Shown: one piece after another, positions 5,047 through 46,886 of the stretch | Numbering within the stretch: the stretch's first letter is position 1 | Layout: every line of letters starts with the position of its first letter | Assembly: GCA_029432795.1 (NCBI GenBank) | Contig: JARNMJ010000015.1 | Location: forward strand, 1-64,000 | Origin: Pontiellaceae bacterium B12219 | GTDB lineage: Bacteria; Verrucomicrobiota; Kiritimatiellia; Kiritimatiellales; Pontiellaceae | Reading direction: 5' to 3' | DNA length: 64,000 nt | Position numbers and translations under genes: made by a program | Notes under the pieces: model-generated | The model's input: only the letters and a program-made list of their open reading frames with translations | Databases searched by the model: none | What the model was told of the DNA's origin: nothing

Positions 5047-8000
5047 ATGAAGAGGATACTATGTTTATTAGGTCTTGTTGCGCTGGCGGCCGGAAATGTG
5101 TGTGCGGCGGTTTATACCTGGACGGGCGGGGCATCCACCGGTGGAGCTAACGGAATCGGAGACTGGAACAACGGAGGAAACTGGGCTGAAGGCTCCGAAG
5201 GGGTGGCTCCTGGTTTTGATCATACGTCTGATGTGAAGATAGCTGGTGCTTTAAATCCGGATCAGTATATCCGGACTCACCAGACGATTCGGTCTCTCAG
5301 GTTTACGAGTTCGAATGCCGGAGATACCGCCATTGGGCTTCGTGCAGCAAATAATGCTGATCGAGATTTAACCTTTGCTGCTGATGCTGGGAATTCTTCG
5401 CTGACGGTCGATGCGGCAGTCATCGGGAATAAGACCATTGGAGCTAATCTCGCCGGTACAGCAACCGACGGAGAAGTCGTACTCGAAAGTGATTTGGACA
5501 TCGTTCATAACGGTAGCGGGGATCTGACTTTCGTCTGTGAAATAAGGGGTAGCGGGGATGTCAGTCTGACGGGTTCAGGCACGACGGTATTTTCCGGTAC
5601 CAACACGTATACAGGCAACACGACGGTAGACGGCGCATTGACCTTATCAGAAAACGCGCAGTTGTTTTTTACCATCGGTACGAATGGCGTGAATAATGTG
5701 TTGTCAGGTTCAGGGAACATTTTGCTGGAGGGCACTTTTCTGCTGGATCTGAGGAGAGCGGGAGTCACGGTAGGCGATTCCTGGCAGATCGTGGAGGTGG
5801 GCACCCTCTCGGAAACCTTCGGCTCGTCCTTTCAGCTGGCGAGCACCGCCGGCTCTTTCACGGAGAGCAACGGAGTATGGAGCATCACCGAGTATGGTGC
5901 TGACTATGAGTTTGATGAGAGCACGGGTCTGCTCACTGTCGTTAGCGCCCTGCCTGCGGCGGACTGGCTGTCGGGGAAATGGGGCATCGGTTGGCGGTTC
6001 AGAGCGGATGAGAAAGACGAGATCGCGAATTGGAACGTTGATACGTTGGTGTCTCAGGTAAAGAGTATTTCCGGCGTTGATTATGTTGTTTTTAATTTAT
6101 CCGATGGAGCTCATGGGGATGCATATATCGCTCCTCATTCAGTGCTGACTGCAATTACACCCTCCGCCACGCCGGACAATGATCGTGACCTGTTTCTGGA
6201 GATGGCGACCGCGTTTCAGGCAGAGGGCATCAAGGTGATGGCCTATATAGCGGCCCAGGGGCCTGCCATGCTCAAGCATGGCGCGGATTCAGCATTTGAT
6301 AAGGTGCTGGTTGACGGGGTGTATACCTCTCAGGCCATGGATAACTGGAGCAACTATGTCTATAGCGTATATAATATTGCCGACTTCGCGGATGAGCGTG
6401 AGATGTATAAGACGGCCTACGGGGAAGTCATTCTTGACGAATATGCTGCACGCTATGGAAGTTTGATTGACGGATGGTGGTTCGATAATGGAGATGAAAA
6501 TTTTGATGCTGAATTAGTGTACGCAATTGTGAAACAGCATAATCCCCATGTCGCGGTTACGACGAGTGAAGAACTTTCGCTACGGAATGATTTCCTGAGC
6601 GGCCATCCCACGCCTCTGGCCAGCTATCCCGCAAATGATCTGATCAATCTGCCTATGCTCACGGCCATTGAAGCAACTCCTGAAGGCTATCTGTATAAAG
6701 ATTCGCAACCAAACCTTGGGCATATGTTTATGGCGCTGGGAGAATTGTGGAACAGCGGAGATATTGTATGGCCATTGGATCAGGCGGCAGACTGGATGAC
6801 GCGCTGTTTGAATGCGGGCGGAGCATGGACCTGGAATGTGGATCTTGCGGATGACGACTCCATGATCAGAGCGGATTCGGCGAGCTTTATATCAGACCTG
6901 ATGGTCGAAATACCCGCAATGCTCGCATCCAATGTTGCTGCTCCGGTCTTTCTGCAGGACCCGGTTGACGGAGGCAATGCGGAGCTTGGTGCAGCCTATT
7001 CCGGGAGTCTCGCGGGATCGGCCACGGATGCCGACGGAGATACGCTGACCTATGCAATAGCCCCTGGCGGGCCGGATTGGCTGGTGGTCTCCACCAACGG
7101 GACACTCTCGGGCACCCCGTATAATACGTGGGAGTTGGGGATGAACCGATTTACAATCGTGGCGGCCGATGGCAAAGGCCGTATCGATTTAGCGGAGTTG
7201 GAAATTTACGTGGCGGATGAATTCGGCAGCGGTATACCCTATCTTCAGGTATCGTTTGATAATCTGCGCGGCAATCTGTCGGATGGGACGATTAATGGCC
7301 TGCCGATCGGTGACTCCAATGTAATCATCACCAAAGCAACGGATGGAAATGACGTTGTTCTTTCGCTCTCCATCACAAATCAAAATTTTGATGGCGGGGA
7401 TGATTCGGATGATTCTCTGTCGTGGGATGTTCGGGTTAGCGGTTTCTCGAATAGAACCTATACCGTGAATGGTAATGATTCGTCAGTTTCCGGAGGAGTC
7501 TCAGGAGTAGCGGTCGGTACGGTTAACAATGAATTCGGTATTTCGGGTACAGACAACCGGTTTCTGAGCGCGGGTGAATCCATTCAGTTCAGTGTTGAAA
7601 ATACAGTGCTGACGGCGGACGCCGGTTTTTCCGCACAGTTTGCAGGATTTGAAGGTATCTGGATGACTGCGGGCACATATATTTTTGGCGAGGGTGGGGG
7701 GGGACTGGAATCGCTGGTTGTTGAGGAGAATGCGAATCAGAGCCTTACCCCGCGGAATGAGCTTCTTATAACGGCAACCGGGAGCAGTGACCGGATTCGG
7801 GATCTCGACGGTTCATTTATAATTACGGCAGCCGAGCCGGGGATCGCAGATACTTCTTTCGCTATTTTTCAAAATGGGGGGCAGAACTATCCGGGCATGA
7901 CCTATAGGCGGGTCATCACTCCGGCGGCCTATCTCATTGAAACCACGACCAATCTTACAACCGCATCATGGATCCCGCGCAGTGTGGGTCCGGGAGAATC

Positions 8001-8124
8001 GGATGTAACGATTGTTGCCGGGCCAATTGATCATGCCGATGGAACGGAAACCCTTTCGTTCAGACTGAATCAGGATTTTGACGGAAATACACAGCTGTTT
8101 ATCAGAGTTAATACATACGAATGA
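5047..8124 (+). CDS. Beta-strand-repeat protein fused to a putative glycoside hydrolase domain
   Basis: 1025 aa with a signal peptide (cleavage near GNVCAA). Residues 20-300 open with YTWTGG and NWNNGGNW-type motifs and a TGNTTVDGALTL stretch, typical of autotransporter-associated beta-strand repeats. Residues about 305-620 resemble a (beta/alpha)8 glycosidase of the GH29 type: WGIGWRF, repeated aromatic-rich strands and the DGWWFDNGD motif, whose Asp could be the nucleophile. That family assignment is tentative. Next come a He_PIG/cadherin-like Ig domain (DADGDTLTYAI, about residues 640-725) and a ~200-residue domain also found at the N-terminus of the next gene's product. The C-terminal YLIETTTNLTTASW module is common in secreted PVC proteins. 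Expected to act outside the cytoplasm on the same glycan as the neighbouring sulfatases. Confidence 0.8.
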   Translation: MKRILCLLGLVALAAGNVCAAVYTWTGGASTGGANGIGDWNNGGNWAEGSEGVAPGFDHTSDVKIAGALNPDQYIRTHQTIRSLRFTSSNAGDTAIGLRAANNADRDLTFAADAGNSSLTVDAAVIGNKTIGANLAGTATDGEVVLESDLDIVHNGSGDLTFVCEIRGSGDVSLTGSGTTVFSGTNTYTGNTTVDGALTLSENAQLFFTIGTNGVNNVLSGSGNILLEGTFLLDLRRAGVTVGDSWQIVEVGTLSETFGSSFQLASTAGSFTESNGVWSITEYGADYEFDESTGLLTVVSALPAADWLSGKWGIGWRFRADEKDEIANWNVDTLVSQVKSISGVDYVVFNLSDGAHGDAYIAPHSVLTAITPSATPDNDRDLFLEMATAFQAEGIKVMAYIAAQGPAMLKHGADSAFDKVLVDGVYTSQAMDNWSNYVYSVYNIADFADEREMYKTAYGEVILDEYAARYGSLIDGWWFDNGDENFDAELVYAIVKQHNPHVAVTTSEELSLRNDFLSGHPTPLASYPANDLINLPMLTAIEATPEGYLYKDSQPNLGHMFMALGELWNSGDIVWPLDQAADWMTRCLNAGGAWTWNVDLADDDSMIRADSASFISDLMVEIPAMLASNVAAPVFLQDPVDGGNAELGAAYSGSLAGSATDADGDTLTYAIAPGGPDWLVVSTNGTLSGTPYNTWELGMNRFTIVAADGKGRIDLAELEIYVADEFGSGIPYLQVSFDNLRGNLSDGTINGLPIGDSNVIITKATDGNDVVLSLSITNQNFDGGDDSDDSLSWDVRVSGFSNRTYTVNGNDSSVSGGVSGVAVGTVNNEFGISGTDNRFLSAGESIQFSVENTVLTADAGFSAQFAGFEGIWMTAGTYIFGEGGGGLESLVVEENANQSLTPRNELLITATGSSDRIRDLDGSFIITAAEPGIADTSFAIFQNGGQNYPGMTYRRVITPAAYLIETTTNLTTASWIPRSVGPGESDVTIVAGPIDHADGTETLSFRLNQDFDGNTQLFIRVNTYE

Positions 8125-8216
8125 TCGATAAAATATGCCGGCGTTGTCTTTCTTCTACGATCCATTGGCAGTTGAGCTGGGATTATTAAACGGTTGAAAA
8201 TAAGAGGGGAAAGAAG

Positions 8217-11042
8217 ATGAAAAAATACATAGCCATTCTTATAGCAATTGGCTGCTCGGCATCGGTTGCTACCGCAAAACGTGTGACGTTCAAAAACCTG
8301 AGAGGAAGCATTGGAAATACGTTTAGTGTTCAGGTTGACGGAGCCGTTCTGACTGCGGCGAACTCAACCGTTACCCAGCTTGCCAACGAAGGCAATGTCG
8401 GAGTCTATTCCTTCTCCATCGTGAATTATGATTTGGATGGAGGTGGTGTCGCCAACGATGCAATGTCATGGAAGGTCAAGGTGGAGGGCTTCACCAATAC
8501 CTTCTGGAATCTGTCTGCTCCTTCGAATTCGTCTGTGACGTTGGGTGATGGAAACCAACAACTCTATCTGGGAGCAAACGAGTTTGGTATTGATCCCGCC
8601 GGTGCCAACGTCAAAACCCTGTCTCAGGGGGAATCCTTGAAATTTACCGTCACAGATCTGTCCCTGACATCGGATCTTGGTTCTGTCAGTTCGCAGGGAT
8701 TCGATGGCCTGTGGGCTACTGACGGAAGCAGTGTCATTTATGGAGAAGGCACGGGACTGCCCTCGGAAATACGCACTGCAAATGGCGGTTTAACTTTTGA
8801 TGTGTCGGGCGATACATTGCTGCTGACTCAGGTGGCGGCTTCTAACGAACGGTTTCGCGATCTCGATGGATACATTACGGTTACATCAGAAACAGCTCCT
8901 GTTCCGCCGTTTGTGAACCCGTTTGTCGATAGCGATGGCGACAGTTATAGCGATGCGGCGGAAATGGCATTCGGCACGGCAACCAATGATCCAGCATCCC
9001 TTCCGGATTTCACTCCGCCGGCCACCCCGCCGAATCTGGTGATTATTTATGCTGATGATATGGGGTTCAGTGATATATCGGCCTATGGAGACTACTGCGG
9101 GGTAACCAGCCCTGTGAATACGCCGCGGGTGGATGGACTGGTGGCGGAGGGCATGATGTTTACTCAGGCTCATTCCAGTAATGGGGTCTGTACGCCCAGT
9201 CGGTATGCGCTGTTGACCGGGAAGTATAACTGGCGGGAATTTGACGGCATCACCACACATTATGGCGGACAGGTCGGCGGGGATGAGTTGCCGAGAGCCT
9301 CCGATGTCACCATCGCCGAGTTTTTAAAGGAAGAGGGGTATGATACCGCGGCATTCGGGAAGTGGCACCTGGGGGGCGCTTTTTACACGACCAACGGAAC
9401 TCGCATTTTATATGGTGAAACGGACGTGGATCTGACGAACCCGGCCACCGTCGATTGGGGCCGTGCGGTTGATTTTCATGCCGTAGCAAATGGATTTGAT
9501 TCTTTCCGCGGTCTGGCGACTTCGATCAATTTTGCACCCTATGTCTATATGGAAGATGATCGTATGCAGATTTGGGATGCCTCATTGAACGGCGGGATCG
9601 GCGGCTACCGGGATGCCGTGCAAGGCGATGCCTTCCATTATTTCACGACCGAAGAACTCGACTCAACGGTAGTCGGCGCTCCCGGCTCCAGCAACGGACT
9701 GGGGGATCCGTCGTACAAACAGGTTGAAGTGGGGCCGCAAATGATTTCGCAAGTGGAAGCATATATGGCTGATCGTGCTCAGTCGCAGGATCCGGATCCG
9801 TTCTTTGCATATGTTTCACTTTATTCTCCTCACAAACCATGGGCGATCACTCCGGCGTTCACGAATGCGGGGAGCTATCATTATGCGAGCTTTTTAGCGG
9901 AAGTGGATGATCGGATCGGGCGGGTTCTGGATGCCATCGACAGCAACGGGTTCGGCAGCAATACCGTTGTCGTTTTTACCAGCGATAACGGGCCGGAAAA
10001 CTCCGCGATGATTGACAGCATCCAGAATGGGCGTGATTCCAACGGTCAGTTCCGCGGTAATAAGCGGGACGTCTGGGAAGGTGGAACGCGGGTTCCCTTT
10101 GTCGTGCGGTGGCCGGGGCAGGCCGCGCCGGGCGTGGCGAATGACGAGCTGATTTGGCAGGGCGACATCTTTGCCACGATAGCGGCTTTTATCGGCGCGG
10201 AGCTGCCGGCCGAGGTTGCCCCGGACGGCGAGTCGTTTTTGAATATTCTGCGCGGGCAGCAAAAGCCTCCGGTCCGCCGTCCATCCATCATTATCAGTTC
10301 CATGTACAGCAATCTGGGCCTTAAAACCATTGACGGTTGGAAGTTTATTGACGCCTCTGGCGGAGGAAATATCAACTCCTGGGATTCGAGCAATGTCAAG
10401 CTGAGCAGTTCCGTTGCCGAGGGGGTGAATCAGGGCGTTCCGAAGCAGCTGTTTAATCTCGCTCTCGATCTCGGCGAAAATACAAACCTTGTTGTTAACC
10501 TGACGGATGAAAATTCCATCCGGAGTAACCTGATTGCCGCGGTTGGAACAGATCTGCTTGGAGAGCTGGATACCTACCGGACCCAGACCACCGCTGCACG
10601 TTATCTGCGTATGGCGGACAACGATGCTGACGGATTACCGAATTATTTCGAAAATGCATACGGGCTGAATCCGGATTCACCGCTGGATGCGCTGGCGGAC
10701 AGCGATGGCGACGGGCTCAATAATCTGCAGGAATACGCATTGGGCAGTAATCCGGAAAATTCAGATAATACGGCATCTCCGGCTTTTGAGATAATTCATG
10801 ACAGTGGAACGAATTGGTTCGAACACATTTATCAACGGCGAACGGATGCGGTCGACCGGCACTTGAACTATCAGTTGGACGCATTGGACAATCTGCTGAC
10901 GAACACCTGGAGCGCGTCGGAAATTATTGAAACGGGAAGCGGTCCGCTGACGACCGGGTTTGAAGCCGTGACCAATCGGATTCCGGCAGATGATGAACAG
11001 AAATTCCTGCGGTTGAACATTTCGGTAGAGGAAGGCTTCTGA
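8217..11042 (+). CDS. Secreted multidomain S1-family sulfatase
   Basis: 941 aa, signal peptide ending near SVATA. The start follows a strong GAGGGGAAAG ribosome site. Residues 20-225 repeat the domain found at residues about 731-930 of the preceding protein. A short calcium-binding-like DSDGDSYSD segment follows, then a sulfatase domain from about residue 270 (NLVIIYADDMG) with CTPSR at Cys325, GKWHLGG and TSDNGPE. After the sulfatase come two further D-x-D-x-D-G calcium-type repeats (DNDADGLPNYFE, DSDGDGLNNLQE) and a C-terminal Ig-like module. All recognisable sulfatase active-site motifs are intact. The shared accessory domain and 92-base spacing suggest it works with the upstream glycosidase-like protein on one sulfated glycan. 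Confidence 0.9.
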   Translation: MKKYIAILIAIGCSASVATAKRVTFKNLRGSIGNTFSVQVDGAVLTAANSTVTQLANEGNVGVYSFSIVNYDLDGGGVANDAMSWKVKVEGFTNTFWNLSAPSNSSVTLGDGNQQLYLGANEFGIDPAGANVKTLSQGESLKFTVTDLSLTSDLGSVSSQGFDGLWATDGSSVIYGEGTGLPSEIRTANGGLTFDVSGDTLLLTQVAASNERFRDLDGYITVTSETAPVPPFVNPFVDSDGDSYSDAAEMAFGTATNDPASLPDFTPPATPPNLVIIYADDMGFSDISAYGDYCGVTSPVNTPRVDGLVAEGMMFTQAHSSNGVCTPSRYALLTGKYNWREFDGITTHYGGQVGGDELPRASDVTIAEFLKEEGYDTAAFGKWHLGGAFYTTNGTRILYGETDVDLTNPATVDWGRAVDFHAVANGFDSFRGLATSINFAPYVYMEDDRMQIWDASLNGGIGGYRDAVQGDAFHYFTTEELDSTVVGAPGSSNGLGDPSYKQVEVGPQMISQVEAYMADRAQSQDPDPFFAYVSLYSPHKPWAITPAFTNAGSYHYASFLAEVDDRIGRVLDAIDSNGFGSNTVVVFTSDNGPENSAMIDSIQNGRDSNGQFRGNKRDVWEGGTRVPFVVRWPGQAAPGVANDELIWQGDIFATIAAFIGAELPAEVAPDGESFLNILRGQQKPPVRRPSIIISSMYSNLGLKTIDGWKFIDASGGGNINSWDSSNVKLSSSVAEGVNQGVPKQLFNLALDLGENTNLVVNLTDENSIRSNLIAAVGTDLLGELDTYRTQTTAARYLRMADNDADGLPNYFENAYGLNPDSPLDALADSDGDGLNNLQEYALGSNPENSDNTASPAFEIIHDSGTNWFEHIYQRRTDAVDRHLNYQLDALDNLLTNTWSASEIIETGSGPLTTGFEAVTNRIPADDEQKFLRLNISVEEGF

Positions 11043-21050: not shown

Positions 21051-21740
21051 ATGAAAGTGAAAATGACGATTGCGAGTGCAGCTCTTCTGATTGCGGCGGG
21101 TACACAGGCATCCATAACAGATTTCGGACTGGGTGGAAATGTGAGTTACGACGGTTGGGATAATCTCACGGGAACTGAAAATCCAGGCGTTGGAAGTTAT
21201 CCGGGGGCGGCGGCCTGGCCTTTTGCTATCGGCTCAATGGAGACGGGCTCGGGCGATGCGGCATTAATGAAGGAGTCCGGAACGGGATATCCGGGAAGTG
21301 CGGGCATTTATTCCTCTGCCGGCGGAGTGTTCTCTATTTCCGATTCGACCGCGCTGGCCAATGTTCAAACCATTGTTTTGGCATTCGATTACGGGGCTGG
21401 AAGTACTCCCAGTTTTACCAGTGGGCCGTCGCTGACCCTTAATGGATCCACTGTGTTGGGGGCTGCGGACCGTACGCTGTCGCTGGGTTCGCGCGAGGAT
21501 ACCATTGCCGGAAATGAGGTGACCATTTTCACAGAAATCTACCAATGGGATCTTCAGGCGGAAGGCACCGTGAATTCATTTTCGGTGGAGTATGACGTGG
21601 GCGAGCACGCGCAGCAATATGCCATTCAGCTGGAGCAGAGCGATGTGTATTCCGCCGCAATTCCGGAACCGGCCACCATGGCACTGTTCGGTGGAGCCGG
21701 GCTGGCCCTGGCGTTTCTGCGCCGGATGAAAATGTATTAA
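21051..21740 (+). CDS. PEP-CTERM-anchored secreted protein
   Basis: 229 aa. Signal peptide (MKVKMTIASAALLIAAGTQA), a Gly/Ser/Thr-rich beta-type ectodomain without recognised motifs, and a C-terminal IPEPATMALFGGAGLALAFL followed by RRMK: the PEP motif, hydrophobic helix and basic tail of exosortase sorting signals. No exosortase is encoded here. The position directly before another secreted protein and the TonB receptor, between a heme-degradation unit and heme transport genes, makes a surface role in heme capture possible. That is inference; no heme-binding motif is evident. Confidence 0.85.
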   Translation: MKVKMTIASAALLIAAGTQASITDFGLGGNVSYDGWDNLTGTENPGVGSYPGAAAWPFAIGSMETGSGDAALMKESGTGYPGSAGIYSSAGGVFSISDSTALANVQTIVLAFDYGAGSTPSFTSGPSLTLNGSTVLGAADRTLSLGSREDTIAGNEVTIFTEIYQWDLQAEGTVNSFSVEYDVGEHAQQYAIQLEQSDVYSAAIPEPATMALFGGAGLALAFLRRMKMY

Positions 21741-21776: not shown

Positions 21777-22607
21777 ATGAAATCATTAATGACCTTATGC
21801 ATCATGCTGGCCGGCGTTTCGTCCTCGCTGTTACCGGCAGGCGTTTCGGCGCAGTCTTTTATGGAGCCTGGGTATAGCGGGATCACCCAGTTTGCCCAGT
21901 GGTCCACATTTGTTTATGCCACGACAAATTCGGGAATCAATACACCGCAGTGGGAGCTGGGTGCTCCTCAGTTGGAATTAAAACAGTTTAATCCGGCGAT
22001 TATTTCGGGCGGTGGAAATATCTACAGTTATTCTTCGGATATGTCGTTTGAATTGACGGGCTCATCGACCACGAATCTCAGCAGGATTTGTCTGCAGCTG
22101 TTCACGTGGGGCGAAGCCGAGGCGTTGTCGAATGAAACGGTTCGGTTGGTTCTGGACAGCGGTGTTGAACTGGCTCCGACCATTTCAACGAACTTCTACC
22201 ATTGGGTTGATGATCAGGGTGCATACGGGGCGTATCACACCTTGGGGTATAAACTGGAATGGGAGCTGGGCGGCAACGTCGTAACCAACTACGCCATCCG
22301 TTTTGAAACACGTATTCATTCCAGTTTGAATGAGCTGCGGCTGGATACCGAAGCGGGGCCGGTTGGATTACCAGCACCCGAGGCTCCGGTGGTATCGCTG
22401 GACTTCAGCGGGACGGATCCCGTCGTATGTTTCTCCGGCGAACCCGGTGTGTTTTATCAGCTTCGCAGTTCGGAATCGCTCACCAATGCCCTTTCGAACT
22501 GGTCGATTGTTGCCGGCCCTGTTCCGGGAGATGGCAGCGATTGCATGATGACGAATGTTACGGTGAAACCGGCGGCATTCTATGTTGTCGAGGCCTGGCG
22601 GGAGTAA
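21777..22607 (+). CDS. Secreted protein of unknown function beside the heme receptor
   Basis: 276 aa. Signal peptide ending near PAGVSAQ, then a beta-rich ectodomain (aromatic and Asn/Thr-rich). The C-terminal module (PVVCFSGEPGVFYQLRSSES, then LTNALSNWSIVAGPVPGD) is related to the verrucomicrobial-type YxLExSTNLxxxxW modules at the ends of the glycosidase and sulfatases of this window. It lacks the PEP-CTERM anchor of the gene upstream (36-base gap). Its stop lies 4 bases before the preferred TTG start of the receptor, so it is very probably in the receptor operon. I do not recognise a specific family. Confidence 0.75.
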   Translation: MKSLMTLCIMLAGVSSSLLPAGVSAQSFMEPGYSGITQFAQWSTFVYATTNSGINTPQWELGAPQLELKQFNPAIISGGGNIYSYSSDMSFELTGSSTTNLSRICLQLFTWGEAEALSNETVRLVLDSGVELAPTISTNFYHWVDDQGAYGAYHTLGYKLEWELGGNVVTNYAIRFETRIHSSLNELRLDTEAGPVGLPAPEAPVVSLDFSGTDPVVCFSGEPGVFYQLRSSESLTNALSNWSIVAGPVPGDGSDCMMTNVTVKPAAFYVVEAWRE

Positions 22608-40323: not shown

Positions 40324-40338
40324 TTCCAATGATTGGAA
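40324..40338. repeat. TTCCARNNNYTGGAA palindrome ahead of hsdR
   Basis: TTCCAATGATTGGAA, ending 9 bases before the hsdR ATG and partly overlapping its ribosome-binding region (GGAAAGGGGCAGG). Confidence 0.85.
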
Positions 40339-40347
40339 AGGGGCAGG

Positions 40348-43128
40348 ATGAATCAGAATCCGGAACAGATCGCGCGCGATAAAATTGATAAACTGCTTAG
40401 AGCGGCGGGTTGGCAGGTGCAGGCGAAGGGGGCCGAGAATCCGGCCGCCGCGCTGGGCGTTGCAGTTCGGGAATATCAGACCGATGTCGGCCCGGCCGAT
40501 TATGTGCTGTTTGTGGATCGCAAGCCGGTCGGTGTAATTGAGGCCAAACGGGAAGAGGATGGCCATCGGTTGACGGTTGTGGAAGAACAGTCCGTTGGCT
40601 ACGCCGCCTCAAAACTGAAGTACCTGAATAACGATCCGCTGCCGTTTGTCTATGAAAGCACCGGAACGCTCACCCGCTTTACCGACTACCGCGATCCCAA
40701 GCCGCGCGGTCGAACCGTGTTCAGTTTCCTGAAACCGGAAACGCTGGCTGACCATCTCAAAAAAGGAACCACGCTGCGGGAACGGTTGCTGGCGATGTCT
40801 CAGCTGGATTCAACGGGCCTGCGCCCGGCTCAGATTGTGGCGATTGAAAATCTCGAACGCTCCTTCAAAAAGAACCGGCCCAAAGCGCTGATTCAAATGG
40901 CCACCGGTGCGGGAAAAACCTTCACCGCCGCCACCTTTGTGTATCGCCTGCTCAAACACGCTGATGCCAAACGCATCCTGTTTCTGGTCGATACCAAAAA
41001 TCTGGGAGAGCAGGCCGAACAGGAATTCATGACGTTCCAGCCCAACGACGATAACCGAAAGTTTACCGAGCTCTATAATGTGCAGCGGCTCACCTCCGGC
41101 TATATCGCTTCGGATGCGCAGGTTTGCATTTCCACCATCCAGCGGCTGTACTCCATTCTTAAAGGAGAAGAGCTTGATGAAAGCGCTGAGCTGGCAAACC
41201 CTGCCGAAAGTTCGTGGATGGAGCAGCAGCGCAAAAAGGCGGCCACCTTTGTGGACTACACCCCGAACGTGCCGATTGAGCAATTCGACTTTATCGTGAT
41301 CGATGAATGCCACCGCTCCATTTACAACCTTTGGAAACAGGTGCTCGATTATTTCGATGCCTTTTTGATCGGCCTTACGGCCACGCCCGACAAACGTACC
41401 TTCGGCTTTTTCAATGAAAACGTCGTCAGCGAATATACCTATGAGGAATCGGTGATCGACGGCGTGAATGTGCCGCAGGAGGTCTATCATATCGAAACCG
41501 AGGTTTCCACCAAAGGGGCAGTGGTGAAGTCGGGCTGGTTTGTGGATCGGCGCGATAAACTGACCCGTAAAAAACGCTGGCAGCAGGAAGACGAAACCAC
41601 GGAATATAAAAAGAGCCAGCTCGATAAAAAAGTGGTCAACCCCAGCCAGATCCGCAACGTCATCCGTGAATTTAAACACGCGCTGAAAACCAAAATTTAT
41701 CCCGGACGGGTTGATGAAAACGGCGACTATGAAGTTCCCAAAACACTCGTCTTTGCCAAGACCGACAGTCATGCCGACGACATCATCAAAATCATTCGCG
41801 AGGAGTTTGATGAAGGCAACGCATTTTGCAAAAAGGTGACGTATAAAATTGATGAAGATCCGAAGTCGGTGCTCAACCGTTTTCGCAATGCCTACTATCC
41901 TCGTATCGCCGTTACGGTGGATATGATTGCCACGGGCACCGATGTGAAACCGCTCGAAGTGCTGCTGTTTATGCGCGATGTTCGCAGCACCAACTATTTT
42001 GAGCAGATGAAAGGGCGCGGCACGCGTACCATTCCAACCGATTCTCTGCAGGCGGTTTCGCGCACCGCACCGGGCAAAACGCATTTTGTGATTGTTGATG
42101 CGGTCGGCGTCACAAAATCCAAAAAGACCGACAGTCGTCCGCTCGAACGCAAACCGACCATTCCGCTCAAAGATCTGCTCGGCGCGGTAACGATGGGCGC
42201 GGCCGATGAAGATCTGTTTCTTTCGCTCGCCAACCGCCTGATCCGGCTGGATCAGCAGCTTACTGAAAAAGAGCAGACCGAACTGCTTCGTCAGACCGGC
42301 GGAAAAAGTCTGAAACAAATCACCAAAGCATTGATCCGTGCCTACGATCCCGATGCCGTTATTGCCCGGTCGACTGCCGAACCGAACGATCCGCCCGGTG
42401 TGGTTGAAACCAAAAATAAAGAAGCGCAGGAGGAGCTGATTTCGGAAGCCGCCACCGTTTTTCATGGCGAGCTGAATACCTATCTGGAAAACGTCCGCAA
42501 AGAACACGAACAGATTATCGACCATATCAATATCGATCGCGTCACGCATTCCGATTGGGAAACGAGCTCGGTTGAAAAGGCGCAGGCGCTGATTGGTGAA
42601 TTCCGCGACTATCTGGAAATGCACAAAGATGAAATTCAGGCGCTCAGCATTTTTTATAATCAGCCCTATAACCGCCGCGAAATCACGTTCCGGATGATTA
42701 AAGAGGTGCTTGAAAAGCTGCGCCTTGAAAAACCGACACTCGCGCCCGTTGCTGTTTGGAATGCCTACACTGCCATTGAAACGGTGAAAGGCGACCGGCC
42801 GAAGGAAGAGCTGGCCACGCTGATTTCGCTGATCCGACGCGCCTGCGGAATTGATTCGGAGCTCAAAGCGTTCGATAAAACGATTGATGAAAATTTCCGC
42901 AGCTGGATGTTTAAGCAGAATGCCGGGCAGCACAATCGCTTCAGCCCTGAACAAATGGACTGGCTGCGCATGATTAAAGATCATGTGATTACCAGCTACC
43001 ACATGGATCTTGACGATCTGGATTACACCCCGTTCGATGCCGAGGGCGGCCGCGGAAAAATGTATCAGCTCTTCGGCGATTCCATGAATGAACTGATCAA
43101 CGAGCTCAACGAAGTGCTGGCCGCTTAA
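40348..43128 (+). CDS. hsdR: Type I restriction enzyme, restriction/translocase subunit
   Basis: 926 aa. The N-terminal PD-(D/E)xK nuclease has Asp51 and the E-A-K of VGVIEAKRE at residues 66-68. A superfamily-2 DNA translocase follows: Walker A MATGAGKTF from residue 184, DECH box from residue 319, LTATP, and motif VI QMKGRGTRTI. The C-terminus is the helical assembly region. ATG 40348 follows an AAAGGGG site; an in-frame TTG 15 bases upstream is less likely. First gene of the operon hsdR - transposase-like - hsdS - hsdM. It cuts unmodified DNA at a distance after ATP-driven translocation. Confidence 0.95.
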   Translation: MNQNPEQIARDKIDKLLRAAGWQVQAKGAENPAAALGVAVREYQTDVGPADYVLFVDRKPVGVIEAKREEDGHRLTVVEEQSVGYAASKLKYLNNDPLPFVYESTGTLTRFTDYRDPKPRGRTVFSFLKPETLADHLKKGTTLRERLLAMSQLDSTGLRPAQIVAIENLERSFKKNRPKALIQMATGAGKTFTAATFVYRLLKHADAKRILFLVDTKNLGEQAEQEFMTFQPNDDNRKFTELYNVQRLTSGYIASDAQVCISTIQRLYSILKGEELDESAELANPAESSWMEQQRKKAATFVDYTPNVPIEQFDFIVIDECHRSIYNLWKQVLDYFDAFLIGLTATPDKRTFGFFNENVVSEYTYEESVIDGVNVPQEVYHIETEVSTKGAVVKSGWFVDRRDKLTRKKRWQQEDETTEYKKSQLDKKVVNPSQIRNVIREFKHALKTKIYPGRVDENGDYEVPKTLVFAKTDSHADDIIKIIREEFDEGNAFCKKVTYKIDEDPKSVLNRFRNAYYPRIAVTVDMIATGTDVKPLEVLLFMRDVRSTNYFEQMKGRGTRTIPTDSLQAVSRTAPGKTHFVIVDAVGVTKSKKTDSRPLERKPTIPLKDLLGAVTMGAADEDLFLSLANRLIRLDQQLTEKEQTELLRQTGGKSLKQITKALIRAYDPDAVIARSTAEPNDPPGVVETKNKEAQEELISEAATVFHGELNTYLENVRKEHEQIIDHINIDRVTHSDWETSSVEKAQALIGEFRDYLEMHKDEIQALSIFYNQPYNRREITFRMIKEVLEKLRLEKPTLAPVAVWNAYTAIETVKGDRPKEELATLISLIRRACGIDSELKAFDKTIDENFRSWMFKQNAGQHNRFSPEQMDWLRMIKDHVITSYHMDLDDLDYTPFDAEGGRGKMYQLFGDSMNELINELNEVLAA

Positions 43129-43129
43129 T

Positions 43130-44074
43130 ATGCCCTACGATCCCGCAAAGCATCATAGGCAAAGCATTCGGCTGAAAGGGCACGACTATGCCAGCGGCGG
43201 TACGTATTTTGTGACGATCTGCGCGCATCGGGAGGCAGGCAATATCTTTGCGGATGCGGCGGCGAAGGAAGTGGTGCAGCAATGCTGGCAGGAAATCCCG
43301 GCGCATTTCCCGCAGGTCGAGTTGGGTGAGTTTGTGGTGATGCCCGATCATGTGCACGGCATTTTGAGCATGGCACCTGTAGCGGCGAAAAATCTTTCGC
43401 CGGACAGGGCGAAAAATGTTTCGCCCATACGGGAAAAGGGCAGCCGCCCGTGCGGCACCTCCAGAACCCTGGGTTCCGTGGTGCGCGGGTTCAAGGTGGG
43501 AGTCACGAAACAGTTGCGCCCGAAGGGGAGCGAAAAGAAAATCTGGCACCGCAATTATTATGAAATGATTGTGCGCTCGGCGGAGGCGGAGGAAAAGATT
43601 GCGACATATATCCGGATGAATCCGTGGAAGTGTGTGCAGAATCTGGGCAGCGGATTGCGGGGCATCGGCAATCCGGCGCTTTGGCATGCGGAAAAGCTCG
43701 GCGTGCTGTGCAGCCGCAATGCGCCGCCTGTCGGGGCGAAAGATTTTTCGCCCATACCACTTCCCGAGGCCGCCGTTTATTTGGGCGGCTGGCATTCTCC
43801 GAAGGAAAAAGAAATCCTCGACTGGCTCCTCGAAAAAGGAAAATCCATTATTGCCTGCCCGGCCTGGGGCATCGGGGCGGGTGAAGTGAGGGCGAAATAT
43901 CTTTCTCCCCTACAAGAAAACCGCCTATTGATTCTCGAAATGCATAATCGCGATGGCGATCTCGCCGCGGCGGAGCAACGGAACCGATTTGTCATTGAAC
44001 AGGCCGACGCCCTTTTCACCCCCCACGTCACCCCCGGCGGCATGCTCGACCGGCTTTTGAAGGAAAATAAATGA
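43130..44074 (+). CDS. RAYT-type HUH transposase fused to a SLOG/DprA-like domain
   Basis: 314 aa. Residues 1-190 are a Y1/REP-associated tyrosine transposase: FVVMPDHVHGIL with the HUH histidines at 74 and 76, and WHRNYYEMIVRSAEAEEKIA and YIRMNPWKC with candidate catalytic Tyr143/144. Residues about 190-314 resemble the Rossmann-like SLOG/DprA family: GVLCSRNAPP, GGWHSPKEKEIL, IIACPAWGI, RNRFVIEQADALFTPHVTPGG. The fusion starts 1 base after the hsdR stop and overlaps hsdS by 4 bases (ATGA), so it is a built-in operon member rather than a fresh insertion. Four copies of a palindrome lie in the coding sequence and add [A]K-x-x-S-P peptides at residues 85-100, 203-209 and 255-261. Function unknown; DNA hairpin handling or defence signalling are possibilities. 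Confidence 0.82.
   Translation: MPYDPAKHHRQSIRLKGHDYASGGTYFVTICAHREAGNIFADAAAKEVVQQCWQEIPAHFPQVELGEFVVMPDHVHGILSMAPVAAKNLSPDRAKNVSPIREKGSRPCGTSRTLGSVVRGFKVGVTKQLRPKGSEKKIWHRNYYEMIVRSAEAEEKIATYIRMNPWKCVQNLGSGLRGIGNPALWHAEKLGVLCSRNAPPVGAKDFSPIPLPEAAVYLGGWHSPKEKEILDWLLEKGKSIIACPAWGIGAGEVRAKYLSPLQENRLLILEMHNRDGDLAAAEQRNRFVIEQADALFTPHVTPGGMLDRLLKENK
43384..43426. repeat. Two REP-like palindromes inside the RAYT-SLOG gene
   Basis: GGCGAAAAATCTTTCGCC (43384-43401) and GGGCGAAAAATGTTTCGCCC (43407-43426), near-perfect hairpins five bases apart. Both are read in the same frame as AKNLSP and AKNVSP, inserted between the HUH strand and the helix of the transposase domain. Confidence 0.85.
43734..43753. 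repeat. REP-like palindrome, third copy
   Basis: GGGCGAAAGATTTTTCGCCC, same frame (AKDFSPI). The bases CATAC following it also follow the second copy. It interrupts the start of the SLOG-like domain. Confidence 0.85.
43890..43909. repeat. REP-like palindrome, fourth degenerate copy
   Basis: GGGCGAAATATCTTTCTCCC, again read as AKYLSP in the same frame; the right arm has one change relative to the other copies. Confidence 0.7.
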
Positions 44075-45333
44075 AGAATGCACAAATGAAAAATGATTGG
44101 GTGGAAACAACGCTGGGTGAACTTTTTTTTACAACTTCTGGAGGAACACCTTCTAGAAAATACAAAGCATATTATGAGGGAACGATTCCTTGGGTGAAAT
44201 CGGGAGAGCTAGACAAGGGCCTCATTCTCGACACAGAAGAAAAAATAACCGAAGAAGCCATCAAAAATTCCAGTGCTAAAAAATTCCCGGAAGGCACATT
44301 ATTAATTGCTTTATATGGAGCAACAATTGGGAAGTTGGCTTTCCTTGGAGTTGAAGCAGCAACCAACCAAGCAATTTGCGGAATCTTTGAAAATGACAAT
44401 TTCAATTCAAAATTTCTCTACAACTATTTGCTGTTTAGGAAGCCCAAATTAATTTCTCAAGGCTCAGGTGGAGCCCAGCCCAACATTAGTCAGACGATTT
44501 TAAAGAAGCTGAAAATCCCCCTCGCGCCGTTGCCGGAGCAGCGGGCGATTGTGGCGAAGATTGAGGCGCTTTTCAGCGATCTGGATTCCGGCGTCGCGGA
44601 TTTGAAAACCGCGCAGGCCCAATTAAAAATCTACCGCCAGGCCGTCCTCAAAAAAGCCTTTGAGGGGGGACGGAAAGTTGTTTCTGCTCAGGAAGTGACA
44701 AGGGTGATTTCTGATGGAGATCATCAAGCTCCTCCAAAAGCAACGACAGGAATTCCTTTCATTGTTATTTCAAATATTAAGAAAAATAAAATTGATTTCA
44801 CCCATACAAAATTTGTTCCAACGGAATATTTTGAATCCCTCAAGGAAACAAGGCGCCCGCAAAAAGGAGATGTGCTTTATACGGTGACTGGAAGCTTTGG
44901 GATTCCAGCTATAGTCTCATCGGACAAGGATTTTTGCTTCCAACGCCATATTGGCTTGCTTCGGCCAAATGAAAGAATTTCATCTGAATACCTTTTTTAC
45001 GTATTGCAGTCTCCTGATTTATTTAAGCAAGCAAACGAAGGAGCAACAGGGACGGCACAAAAAACTGTGTCTTTGAAAAACCTTAGAAATTTTAAAATTC
45101 CCCTCTGCTCCCTCGAAGAGCAGCGGCAGATTGTGAAGGAGATTGAGGCGCGGTTGTCGGTGTGTGATGAGGTGGAGGAGACGATTTTCCAGGCCTTGGA
45201 AAAAGCGGAGGCGCTGCGTCAGAGTATTCTGAAAAAGGCGTTTGAGGGGCGGCTGCTGTCGGACGAAGAGTTGGCGGCGTGCCGGGCGGAGCCGGACTGG
45301 GTGTCAGCAGCAGAGCTGCTGGAGAAGAATTAG
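44071..45333 (+). CDS. hsdS: Type I restriction enzyme specificity subunit
   Basis: 420 aa with two target-recognition domains (about residues 8-150 and 205-345). Each is followed by a conserved helical spacer: PLPEQRAIVAKIEALFSDLD to KKAFEGG, and SLEEQRQIVKEIEARLSVCD to KKAFEGRLL. This pairs with HsdM and HsdR and sets the bipartite DNA target. The recognition domains are visibly AT-rich compared with the GC-rich spacers, as expected when they are exchanged between strains. The start overlaps the upstream transposase-like gene (ATGA). Confidence 0.94.
   Translation: MKNAQMKNDWVETTLGELFFTTSGGTPSRKYKAYYEGTIPWVKSGELDKGLILDTEEKITEEAIKNSSAKKFPEGTLLIALYGATIGKLAFLGVEAATNQAICGIFENDNFNSKFLYNYLLFRKPKLISQGSGGAQPNISQTILKKLKIPLAPLPEQRAIVAKIEALFSDLDSGVADLKTAQAQLKIYRQAVLKKAFEGGRKVVSAQEVTRVISDGDHQAPPKATTGIPFIVISNIKKNKIDFTHTKFVPTEYFESLKETRRPQKGDVLYTVTGSFGIPAIVSSDKDFCFQRHIGLLRPNERISSEYLFYVLQSPDLFKQANEGATGTAQKTVSLKNLRNFKIPLCSLEEQRQIVKEIEARLSVCDEVEETIFQALEKAEALRQSILKKAFEGRLLSDEELAACRAEPDWVSAAELLEKN
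45187..45201. repeat. TTCCARNNNYTGGAA palindrome inside hsdS
   Basis: TTCCAGGCCTTGGAA, read as part of the helix FQALEKA. An example of the coding copies; the central GGCC also makes it fully palindromic over 14 of 15 bases. Confidence 0.8.
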
Positions 45334-45365
45334 GAATTCATAATTTAAAATTTGGAATTAAAAAC

Positions 45366-46886
45366 ATGACGGATTCAACGATTATTTCGAAGATTTGGAA
45401 TTTGGCGAGTGTGCTGCGGGATGATGGCGTGGGCTATGGCGATTATCTGGAGCAGATTACGTATCTGCTGTTTTTGAAGATGGCGGAGGAGCTGAATAAA
45501 CCGCCGTATTCCAAGGGCTTAACGTTTCCGCGCTTGAAGGATGTGGAGGGGAAAGAACTTCCGGACGGCGAAGTGTGCGACTGGGAAACGCTTTCAAGCA
45601 AACGCGGCGCGGAGCTGGAGGCCTTTTACAGTCAGCTGCTGCGGAGCCTTTCGACGGAAAAGGGGATGCTGGGTCAGATTTTCACGAAGAGCCAGAATAA
45701 GATTCAGGATCCATCGAAACTGCTGAAGGTGATTGATCTGATTAATCAGGAAAACTGGAACCTGATGGGCGCGGATATTAAGGGCCGGATTTATGAGGGG
45801 CTGCTGGAAAAGAATGCGATGGACAGCTCGGGGAGTTCGGGCGCGGGGCAGTATTTTACGCCGCGTGCGCTGATCCGGACGATGGTGGATTGTGTGCAAC
45901 CGAAGCCGATGAAAACGATTGCGGATCCGGCATGCGGTACGGGCGGCTTTTTTCTGGCAGCGTATGACTGGATTGCGGCGCACCATTCGCTGGATCCCGA
46001 GGCGAAGGCGTTTTTGAAAAACAGGACGTTTTACGGCAATGAGATTGTGGCGAATACGCGGCGCATGTGTTTGATGAATATGTTTCTGCATAATATCGGC
46101 GAGATGGAGGGGGAGCCGCCGATTAAGTCGGCGGATGCGCTGATTGCGGATGACGGGCTTCGGGTGGATTATGTGCTGGCGAATCCGCCGTTCGGTAAAA
46201 AGAGCAGCATGACGATTACGAACGAGGCCGGGGAAGCGGAAAAGCAGGACATGAGCTATAACCGCCAGGATTTCTGGGAGTCGACCTCGAATAAACAGCT
46301 CAACTTTCTGCAGCATATTAAAAGTATGCTGAAGGTGACGGGCGAGGCGGCGGTGGTGCTGCCGGATAATGTGCTGTTCGAGGACGGTGCGGGCGAAGAG
46401 ATTCGCAAGCAGCTGATGCAGACCACGGAACTGCATACAATTCTGCGCCTGCCGACGGGCATTTTTTATGCGCAGGGCGTGAAGGCGAATGTGCTCTTTT
46501 TCAGGAATAAACCGGCGAGCAAAACGGCGTGGACGAAGGACGTCTGGTTTTATGATTATCGCACCAATATACACCACACCCCGAAAAAGAGCCCGATGAC
46601 GCGTGCGCATCTGGATGAATTCGTGGCGCTTTATCAGCCGGGCCATCCTGAAAAGCGGCGGGAAACCTGGAGCGAGGAGAATCCAGAAGGGCGTTGGCGG
46701 AAGTTTACGTATGATGAAATCAGGGCGAGGGATAAGACCAGTCTGGATATTTTCTGGCTGAAAGACCAAAGCCTGACGGATCTGGATAATCTGCCGGACC
46801 CGGATGTGCTGGCGAATGAGATTGTTGAAAATCTGGAAGCGGGGCTGGCGAGCTTCCGCGACGTGGCCGGCGTGCTGGAAGCGTAA
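45366..46886 (+). CDS. hsdM: Type I restriction enzyme methyltransferase subunit
   Basis: 506 aa from ATG 45366; the frame is open upstream through the end of hsdS. An N-terminal helical HsdM domain (TDSTIISKIWNLASVLRDDG) precedes an N6-adenine methyltransferase: SAM motif ADPACGTGGFFLAA and catalytic NPPF in VLANPPFGKKSS, preceded by GAGQYFTPRALI. It methylates adenines in the sequence selected by HsdS and protects the host. No strong ribosome site; a 32-base AT-rich gap separates it from hsdS. Last gene of the operon. Confidence 0.95.
   Translation: MTDSTIISKIWNLASVLRDDGVGYGDYLEQITYLLFLKMAEELNKPPYSKGLTFPRLKDVEGKELPDGEVCDWETLSSKRGAELEAFYSQLLRSLSTEKGMLGQIFTKSQNKIQDPSKLLKVIDLINQENWNLMGADIKGRIYEGLLEKNAMDSSGSSGAGQYFTPRALIRTMVDCVQPKPMKTIADPACGTGGFFLAAYDWIAAHHSLDPEAKAFLKNRTFYGNEIVANTRRMCLMNMFLHNIGEMEGEPPIKSADALIADDGLRVDYVLANPPFGKKSSMTITNEAGEAEKQDMSYNRQDFWESTSNKQLNFLQHIKSMLKVTGEAAVVLPDNVLFEDGAGEEIRKQLMQTTELHTILRLPTGIFYAQGVKANVLFFRNKPASKTAWTKDVWFYDYRTNIHHTPKKSPMTRAHLDEFVALYQPGHPEKRRETWSEENPEGRWRKFTYDEIRARDKTSLDIFWLKDQSLTDLDNLPDPDVLANEIVENLEAGLASFRDVAGVLEA

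Follow-up and report, generated by a model that had tools for sequence, protein, structure and literature searches.

Two adjacent genes of Pontiellaceae bacterium B12219 encode proteins that share a module of about 190 residues, carried on the C-terminal side of a candidate endo-fucoidanase in one and at the N-terminus of a predicted sulfatase in the other. Both genes lie in a stretch of 64,000 nucleotides (contig JARNMJ010000015.1, positions 1 to 64,000) that we refer to as the window; the source genome measures 4.75 Mb and is labelled as the same genus as Pontiella sulfatireligans F21 (genome G028). The module is homologous in both proteins and recurs in Verrucomicrobiota in many architectures. 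Our best explanation, to which we give an even chance, is one family of exported beta-sandwich modules with an accessory function like that of a carbohydrate-binding module (CBM), putatively acting on sulfated, fucose-containing polysaccharide. Export is suggested by signal peptides read by eye and by the PEP-CTERM-type tails of some members.

A homologous module without a family name

A sequence-only reading of the window had pointed to a shared stretch of about 200 residues, and pairwise comparison bears it out. BLASTP aligns the two stretches (window positions 7228-7854 and 8274-8892) with 74 identities in 205 columns (36%), 94.7 bits and E 6e-29, the value for a single pairwise comparison. 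The Smith-Waterman score is 277, against 46 +/- 8.5 in 1000 shuffles of one partner (maximum 80). By alignment, the two stretches are copies of one module. The limits proposed for it were also correct, as the outermost strands of the copy 1 model fall at protein residues 733 and 928. The proposed motifs are all there in the order given, with small slips in spelling and spacing: the DxDGG segment is DLDGG in the sulfatase and NFDGG in the larger protein, the spacings are D-x-x-x-W (not D-x-x-W) and GF-x-G-x-W (not GF-x-G-W), and the end motif reads RIRDLDGSFIIT in one protein and RFRDLDGYITVT in the other. Many members of the family have an acidic loop, D-x-D-G-D-x-x-N-D, between two strands. 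The strict pattern occurs in 25 of 58 copies and a relaxed one in 42, where shuffles lead us to expect 0.03 and 0.93, expectations that flatter the pattern because it was drawn up after inspection of the alignment. The loop probably binds a structural calcium ion.

Copy 1 has no match at E <= 1 in Pfam, NCBIfam, PADLOC or PHROGs, and none among the sequences of the PDB. Copy 2 gave weak matches only (IceA2, E 0.44; DGQHR, 0.027; a pilin repeat, 0.081), with nothing at E <= 1 in PADLOC or PHROGs. Searched singly against Pfam, 54 members produced scattered weak matches to 19 families, none of them a CBM model; the best was MtrF-like domain III (E 6.3e-5, three members). A profile of 54 rows run against PDB sequences returned four matches, with a best E of 0.069. 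The matches to IceA2, to DGQHR and to an SMK beta subunit (six members, best E 0.0068) were judged to be chance. For either window copy no CBM model reached E <= 1 in Pfam, a statement that covers the CBM families present there. Viral contigs, queried with copy 2 only, held no relative, neither copy 1 nor one of the short PEP-CTERM-type copies matched any plasmid record at E <= 0.1, and a text search of the open-licence PMC literature, blind to sequence, found no description of such a module. The label "unnamed" has therefore survived: no convincing match emerged from Pfam, NCBIfam, PHROGs, PADLOC or PDB sequences, and the confident CBM or Pfam match that had been named beforehand as refuting did not turn up in those library scans. 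The module is likely a new, CBM-like family of accessory modules, familiar as a kind and not a new principle.

It is possible, if somewhat unlikely, that the module is instead a far-diverged branch of a described family, beyond the reach of hidden Markov model searches with single sequences. The parent could be a known CBM, an NCBI PEP-CTERM family or one of the NCBI domains named "choice-of-anchor". Such an origin would suit the predicted all-beta sandwich, which has CBM-type folds among its nearest solved structures, and also the weak matches of several short copies to NCBIfam PEP-CTERM families. These matches span the tail and run into the C-terminal part of the module, and every one falls well short of its cut-off (the best is NF038124, E 8.8e-5, with 22.2 bits where 100 are required; the others are NF038129, NF038125 and NF038126). 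Because they reach into the module, a remote link to these families is possible. Full-length module proteins also gave other NCBIfam matches, which may fall within the module or outside it. The library results given above argue in the other direction, both for the 54 members in Pfam and for the 54-row profile against the PDB, as does NCBIfam, where copy 1 alone matched nothing and copy 2 had only the matches at 0.027 and 0.081.

Predicted fold, partner domains and putative function

Structure prediction, which had been proposed as a check on the domain, was run on both copies. AlphaFold2 with a five-sequence input models copy 1 as an all-beta protein (mean pLDDT, the predicted local distance difference test score, of 79.3; predicted TM-score 0.81), the five models ranging from pLDDT 47.7 to 79.3. 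The prediction for copy 2 is poor (pLDDT 60.7). In the copy 1 model the fold class is a beta sandwich, and a CBM-type jelly roll is suggested. Among the 50 rows listed by VIA-align, 18 are CBMs or carbohydrate-binding domains by their titles, including six CBM29 structures, and the best Z scores are 6.2 (an esterase) and 6.1 (CBM29; 3.3 Å over 115 residues); according to the guidance that comes with the tool, a Z under 8 may reflect a common arrangement only. Structures of CBM29, CBM6, CBM35, CBM22, CBM86 and CBM61 (1wcu, 2cdo, 2vzp, 1h6y, 6sgf and 2xon) lie near the model at Z 4.7-6.1, with root-mean-square deviations of 3.1-4.1 Å over 97-115 residues. They differ from it in that identity is 6-13%, Z is below the level that tells relatives from common arrangements, and the module, at about 190 residues, is larger. 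No match at E <= 1e-3 came from a viral fold library.

Relatives were collected by profile search. Those that passed a cut of 1e-20 number 58 domains, spread over 50 proteins and 11 genomes or records, all from Pontiella-type Kiritimatiellota or other Verrucomicrobiota. The count is drawn from fetched stretches and leaves out one duplicate locus (L061, the same as L045), partial copies above the cut (L106 and L108) and marginal matches in genomes G032 and G269. Two or three copies occur in seven of the 50 proteins. The partner is a GHL15 barrel in 21 proteins (by a local profile), a GH107-like barrel in four, a sulfatase in one and something else in 13, the last group including Big_9/cadherin-type proteins and two with matches to histidine phosphatases. 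The remaining 11 are short (193-349 residues) and consist of the module and a PEP-CTERM-type tail, with no catalytic domain. Pfam, applied independently, finds GHL15 in 19 of 46 proteins and Big_9 in 20. The module stands before GHL15 barrels, behind GH107-like barrels and in front of the sulfatase. Its description as movable is well supported, since the 58 copies lie at either end of proteins or inside them, accompany several kinds of partner and also occur in short non-catalytic proteins. A look at the distribution next to sulfatases had been proposed as well, which proves too narrow: one of the 50 proteins is a sulfatase, and GHL15 barrels are the main partner.

The all-beta model of copy 1 and the existence of the 11 short proteins argue that the module folds independently. 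Two marks of a CBM are present: a discrete fold, in the copy 1 model and in the short proteins, and a place contiguous within a carbohydrate-active enzyme, in the GH107-like, GHL15 and sulfatase proteins, whose activities are predicted. GHL15 (PF14885), the commonest catalytic partner, differs from the module in being a catalytic barrel, and GHL1-GHL15 are described in PMC5765458 as families likely to be glycoside hydrolases. As a side observation, GHL15 proteins such as L064:5046-8996 start with a Trp/Asn-rich segment that by eye seems to resemble the N-terminal segment of the GH107-like protein.

In all 21 GHL15 proteins a module copy ends 9-14 residues before the barrel, in 14 of them exactly 12. 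The GHL15-borne copies form one clade in our tree (support 100/98), which suggests a single fusion, retained since. Such regularity is what one would expect of a structural companion that packs against the barrel and stabilises it or completes its active-site cleft, with no glycan binding at all. We think this unlikely. The genomes of the family contain 47 GHL15 matches, 13 of them in frames of 379-428 residues, too short for barrel plus module; the 11 short proteins have no catalytic domain to pack against; and an immunoglobulin-like (Ig-like) domain intervenes between barrel and module in the GH107-like protein of the window and in locus L044, as does a TSP3-like linker, read by eye, in the sulfatase.

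A CBM-like accessory function, plausible from the partners, the genomic setting and the all-beta model, would work as follows. The module would hold its enzyme (endo-fucoidanase, GHL15 hydrolase or sulfatase) on sulfated, probably fucose-containing algal polysaccharide or, alternatively, on the cell's own sulfated matrix, so that catalytic domain and substrate would be more concentrated locally. In GHL15 enzymes it would sit tight to the barrel and may contribute to the cleft that receives the substrate, and in the two window proteins it is attached through the Ig-like domain or the TSP3-like linker. In the short copies the same capacity to bind would be presented on the surface of the cell.

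The case for fucan begins with the larger window protein. It had been described as glycosidase-like, for which GH107 (endo-fucoidanase)-like is the better term. In phmmer searches its barrel matches the solved GH107 enzymes P5AFcnA (6m8n, E 6e-12), 6dns (2.4e-11) with 6dlh (MfFcnA) and 6dms (up to 4.5e-11), and 8bpd (2e-6). Asp480 aligns with the Asp of WLDN in 6m8n and His520 with the His of NGHVTPL. Asp acts as nucleophile and His as acid/base in GH107 according to PMC11943901, where these residues appear as Asp201 and His276, 75 apart in the chain as they are in 6m8n (counted by hand). These alignments make the protein a candidate GH107-like endo-fucoidanase. It differs from the solved enzymes in that the similarity is weak, in that Asp and His are 40 residues apart and not 75 (by hand), and in that its catalytic part is followed by the new module. 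Two non-catalytic modules of exported enzymes degrading sulfated fucans, WfCBM47 and the beta-sandwich module of Fun174A, are spoken of in PMC11943901, which also cites a 2024 study of GH107-related fucanases in the PVC superphylum. Set beside the published descriptions of the two, the new module is similar in its setting and, for Fun174A, in its predicted fold, but differs in occurring also in short PEP-CTERM-type proteins, in being fixed to GHL15 barrels and in having no Pfam CBM match.

The second element is the genomic setting. According to PMC7356697, several fucoidans support the growth of two Pontiella type strains, which are reported to encode GH107; P. agarivorans, a third species, did not grow on one fucoidan (PMC10880615). 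In the Verrucomicrobiota genome G460, nine of 11 module matches are on contig C2 (884,666 bases, 18% of the assembly; binomial 8e-6). Of 38 Alpha_L_fucos matches, 30 are on this contig too, six of them weak and short. Sulfatases are plentiful on both contigs, with 57 on C1 by hand count among the matches listed and the rest on C2. The two module copies on the chromosome have fucosidase matches at distances of 0.7 and 3.4 kb. None of 5000 random placements over the whole genome reached the observed nearness of modules to fucosidases, and with placement confined to the same contigs the observed median distance was reached in 25 of 5000. In Lentimonas-group isolates much of the fucoidan potential is encoded on megaplasmids, as PMC8857213 reports.

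Several results weigh against a glycan-binding module of fucan-degrading enzymes. Foldseek found nothing in the PDB at E <= 1e-3 for the copy 1 model; the best VIA-align Z of 6.2 is below the 7-8 typical of models without a clear match, and the same 50 rows include nine Eph-receptor ligand-binding domains and five phage tail or virion proteins. The fold list for copy 2 (best Z 5.0, an envelope protein) is not CBM-like, and was set aside as uninformative given the pLDDT of that model. The module profile matches only two open reading frames in the window, so the other two sulfatases there are without it. The constant gap to GHL15 barrels suits a packing role. Two of the G460 partners are histidine-phosphatase-like and not glycan enzymes, and a histidine phosphatase is an unusual partner for a module that binds glycans. 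For the GH107 assignment, the His520 stretch alone is not significant (i-Evalue 0.77 in 6m8n and 0.69 in 8bpd), and the MfFcnA alignments do not cover it. With same-contig placement the nearness in G460 is weak by another measure, as 876 of 5000 random placements match the six of 11 modules that lie within 10 kb of a fucosidase. Finally, one copy was found in P. sulfatireligans (9 of 29 candidates scored), though this species grows on several fucoidans.

Fucoidan stores marine carbon and is broken down slowly, and few fucanase modules have been characterised. Attached to GH107-like, GHL15 and sulfatase proteins of Verrucomicrobiota, the movable module offers a marker by which other candidates for fucan-active enzymes can be sought, as well as a candidate reagent for binding. 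It also draws attention to GHL15, a hypothetical glycosidase family that is likely to take part in the degradation of sulfated polysaccharides.

Short copies, spread and descent

The PEP motif, hydrophobic stretch and basic end of a PEP-CTERM signal are recognised by pattern in ten short copies, and in one more that is cut by the locus end. A TIGR02595 scan of eight of the 11 put four above the 16-bit cut-off and two below, with two unreported. The source genome encodes an exosortase (PF09721, E 9.8e-53). This is the extent of the likeness to the PEP-CTERM/exosortase system; the difference is that the tail is a separate signal and the module, mostly found without a tail, is no anchor. The suggestion that the domain itself attaches to the surface finds no support here, the sorting signal, where there is one, being the tail. 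A few short copies are irregular. Two open frames, L049 and L059:10346-10948, show no signal peptide and start inside the module or close to it. The profile match of the L049 copy (L049:7783-8361, G460:C2:241773-242279) crosses one TGA, and this gene may be broken or a base call wrong. Just upstream of a short module gene of genome G003 is an open frame that by eye looks transposase-like (L007:2101-3342, minus strand); the module frame beside it (201 residues, no evident signal peptide) may be an interrupted gene.

In three Pontiella-group genomes (G000, G003 and G021) a Big_9/cadherin-type module protein is followed in conserved order by a GHL15 module enzyme, with a short PEP-CTERM-type module gene between them in G000 and G003. 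A 242-residue secreted-looking protein stands between a short module protein and a GHL15 enzyme at L003:2115-2843. It could be a distant relative; the module profile finds no match in it at 1e-3.

Such neighbours raise the question of docking. Here the copies would attach to one another, to a surface protein or to exopolymer made by the cell itself, and would retain enzymes at the cell instead of binding the algal substrate. The tails of the short copies would fit, the PEP-CTERM signal being linked to exopolysaccharide producers (PMC1569441), as would the sulfated, glycosaminoglycan-like exopolymers that Pontiella makes (PMC7356697). The histidine-phosphatase-like partners and the fixed GHL15 gap likewise count for packing or docking roles. 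No family of pairing partners turned up, though no systematic search for one was made, and few of the sampled genomes showed the module, although PEP-CTERM systems should be more common than that. We regard docking as distinctly unlikely. More doubtful still is a wider arrangement, an exosortase-dependent surface system for fucan degradation in which short copies, cadherin-like filaments and module-bearing hydrolases and sulfatases would all recognise one polymer or one another. If it were true, it would amount to a polysaccharide-bound enzyme layer, like a cellulosome in role, held together by one new beta-sandwich family.

At E <= 1e-3 the module was found in eight of 345 genomes of the class (two marginal); 387 genomes drawn from the phylum yielded six, with G460 the sole addition; at E <= 1e-5 it was present in five of the 273 genomes sampled in the order of G460, once as a partial match; and a scan of named genomes returned two Pontiellaceae already counted and an Akkermansiaceae metagenome-assembled genome. 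The profile searches scored 8-11 candidates in each genome, which makes the copy numbers minimum values and any absence uncertain. The source genome holds copies beyond the window pair, the closest on a short protein of contig C251.

On the tree the label "PEP-CTERM alone" needs seven changes (shuffled mean 10.2), and such copies lie among enzyme-borne ones, which implies that the module has moved between short and enzyme-borne forms. In the free tree copy 1 falls beside GH107-borne copies from two further Pontiellaceae (99/83), and copy 2 beside one from Akkermansiaceae (98/80; long branches). Independent acquisition of the window copies is thus favoured by the free tree, but not established, as the approximately unbiased test does not reject a tree in which they are sisters (p 0.229). 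That test and the adjacency of the genes are what favours a local duplication with no wider meaning, which we consider very improbable given the separate placements in the free tree, and which the spread of 58 copies over 11 genomes or records rules out as a full explanation, leaving the order of events.

The sulfatase slot offers a further view of this mobility. Outside its own genome, the best relative of the window sulfatase is a sulfatase of P. sulfatireligans (57% identity over 659 columns), and the alignment begins at window residue 225, the module end. The front segment of the P. sulfatireligans protein is not recognisable as a module (-2.9 bits with the profile). By this comparison the module appears to have been exchanged in the sulfatase slot, the orthologous Pontiella enzyme having a different, unrecognised segment there. 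The front segment scores 72 against the module, where shuffles give 42.6 +/- 7.1 and none of 500 is as high; an unrelated Gly/Ser-rich segment of the other window protein also scores 63. The shuffle result speaks against calling the front segment clearly unrelated, and a distant common origin with the module is possible.

Coordinates and neighbouring genes

The first 11,042 nucleotides of the window hold three sulfatase genes and the gene of the larger enzyme, all head to tail (Table 1). The 1025-residue protein consists, in order, of a signal peptide (by eye), a PATR-like N-terminal part, the GH107-like barrel, the Ig-like domain, copy 1 and a C-terminal tail. Its N-terminal segment (window 5047-5950) is made of beta repeats, with weak matches to PATR/autotransporter repeats. 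The 941-residue protein has a signal peptide (by eye), copy 2, the TSP3-like linker, an S1-type sulfatase domain and a C-terminal part, and its closest solved relatives are sulfatases (6s20, E 1.8e-52).

Table 1. Positions of the features discussed, in window coordinates unless a locus is named.
Feature	Position	Strand	Remarks
Sulfatase with Laminin_G_3, open at contig start	1..3063	+	PF00884 E 1.5e-27; PF13385 E 4.4e-14
Sulfatase, 616 aa	3103..4953	+	Pfam PF00884 E 6.7e-40
Open reading frame of GH107-like protein, 1025 aa	5047..8124	+	last but one gene of the head-to-tail group
GH107-like (candidate endo-fucoidanase) barrel	5950..6950	+	phmmer to solved GH107 structures
Candidate nucleophile Asp480	codon 6484-6486	+	aligned with 6m8n
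Candidate acid/base His520	codon 6604-6606	+	aligned with 6m8n
Putative Ig domain (He_PIG), residues 643-711	6973..7179	+	Pfam PF05345 E 1.1e-7; between barrel and copy 1
Module copy 1, residues 731-930	7237..7836	+	C-terminal side, after Ig-like domain
Open reading frame of sulfatase with copy 2, 941 aa	8217..11042	+	adjoins GH107-like gene
Module copy 2, residues 20-225	8274..8891	+	directly after signal peptide (by eye)
Sulfatase domain, residues 272-660	9030..10196	+	Pfam PF00884 E 1.3e-47; C-T-P-S-R present (by eye)
Histidine-phosphatase-like protein, module at C-terminal end	L071:6787-8214 (G460)		Pfam PF00300 E 1.6e-4
Histidine-phosphatase-like protein, module at C-terminal end	L072:6981-8507 (G460)		Pfam PF00300 E 7.9e-8
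Loci of conserved gene order	L053:5841-12612; L059:6479-14763; L066:5684-10129

Farther along the window, a 229-residue PEP-CTERM-type protein (21051-21740; tail IPEPATMALFGGAGLALAFLRRMKMY) is followed by another secreted protein (21777-22607) and then by a TonB-type receptor and iron- or haem-type ABC transport genes (names by eye); the first is possibly an exosortase substrate near metal-uptake genes. By eye, positions 40333-46886 contain Type I restriction-modification genes R, S and M, with a REP-associated transposase-like open reading frame (43130-44074) between R and S. On the minus strand, a 792-residue protein (56660-59038) with several CxxCH motifs and TPR-like repeats is, again by eye, apparently a multihaem cytochrome.

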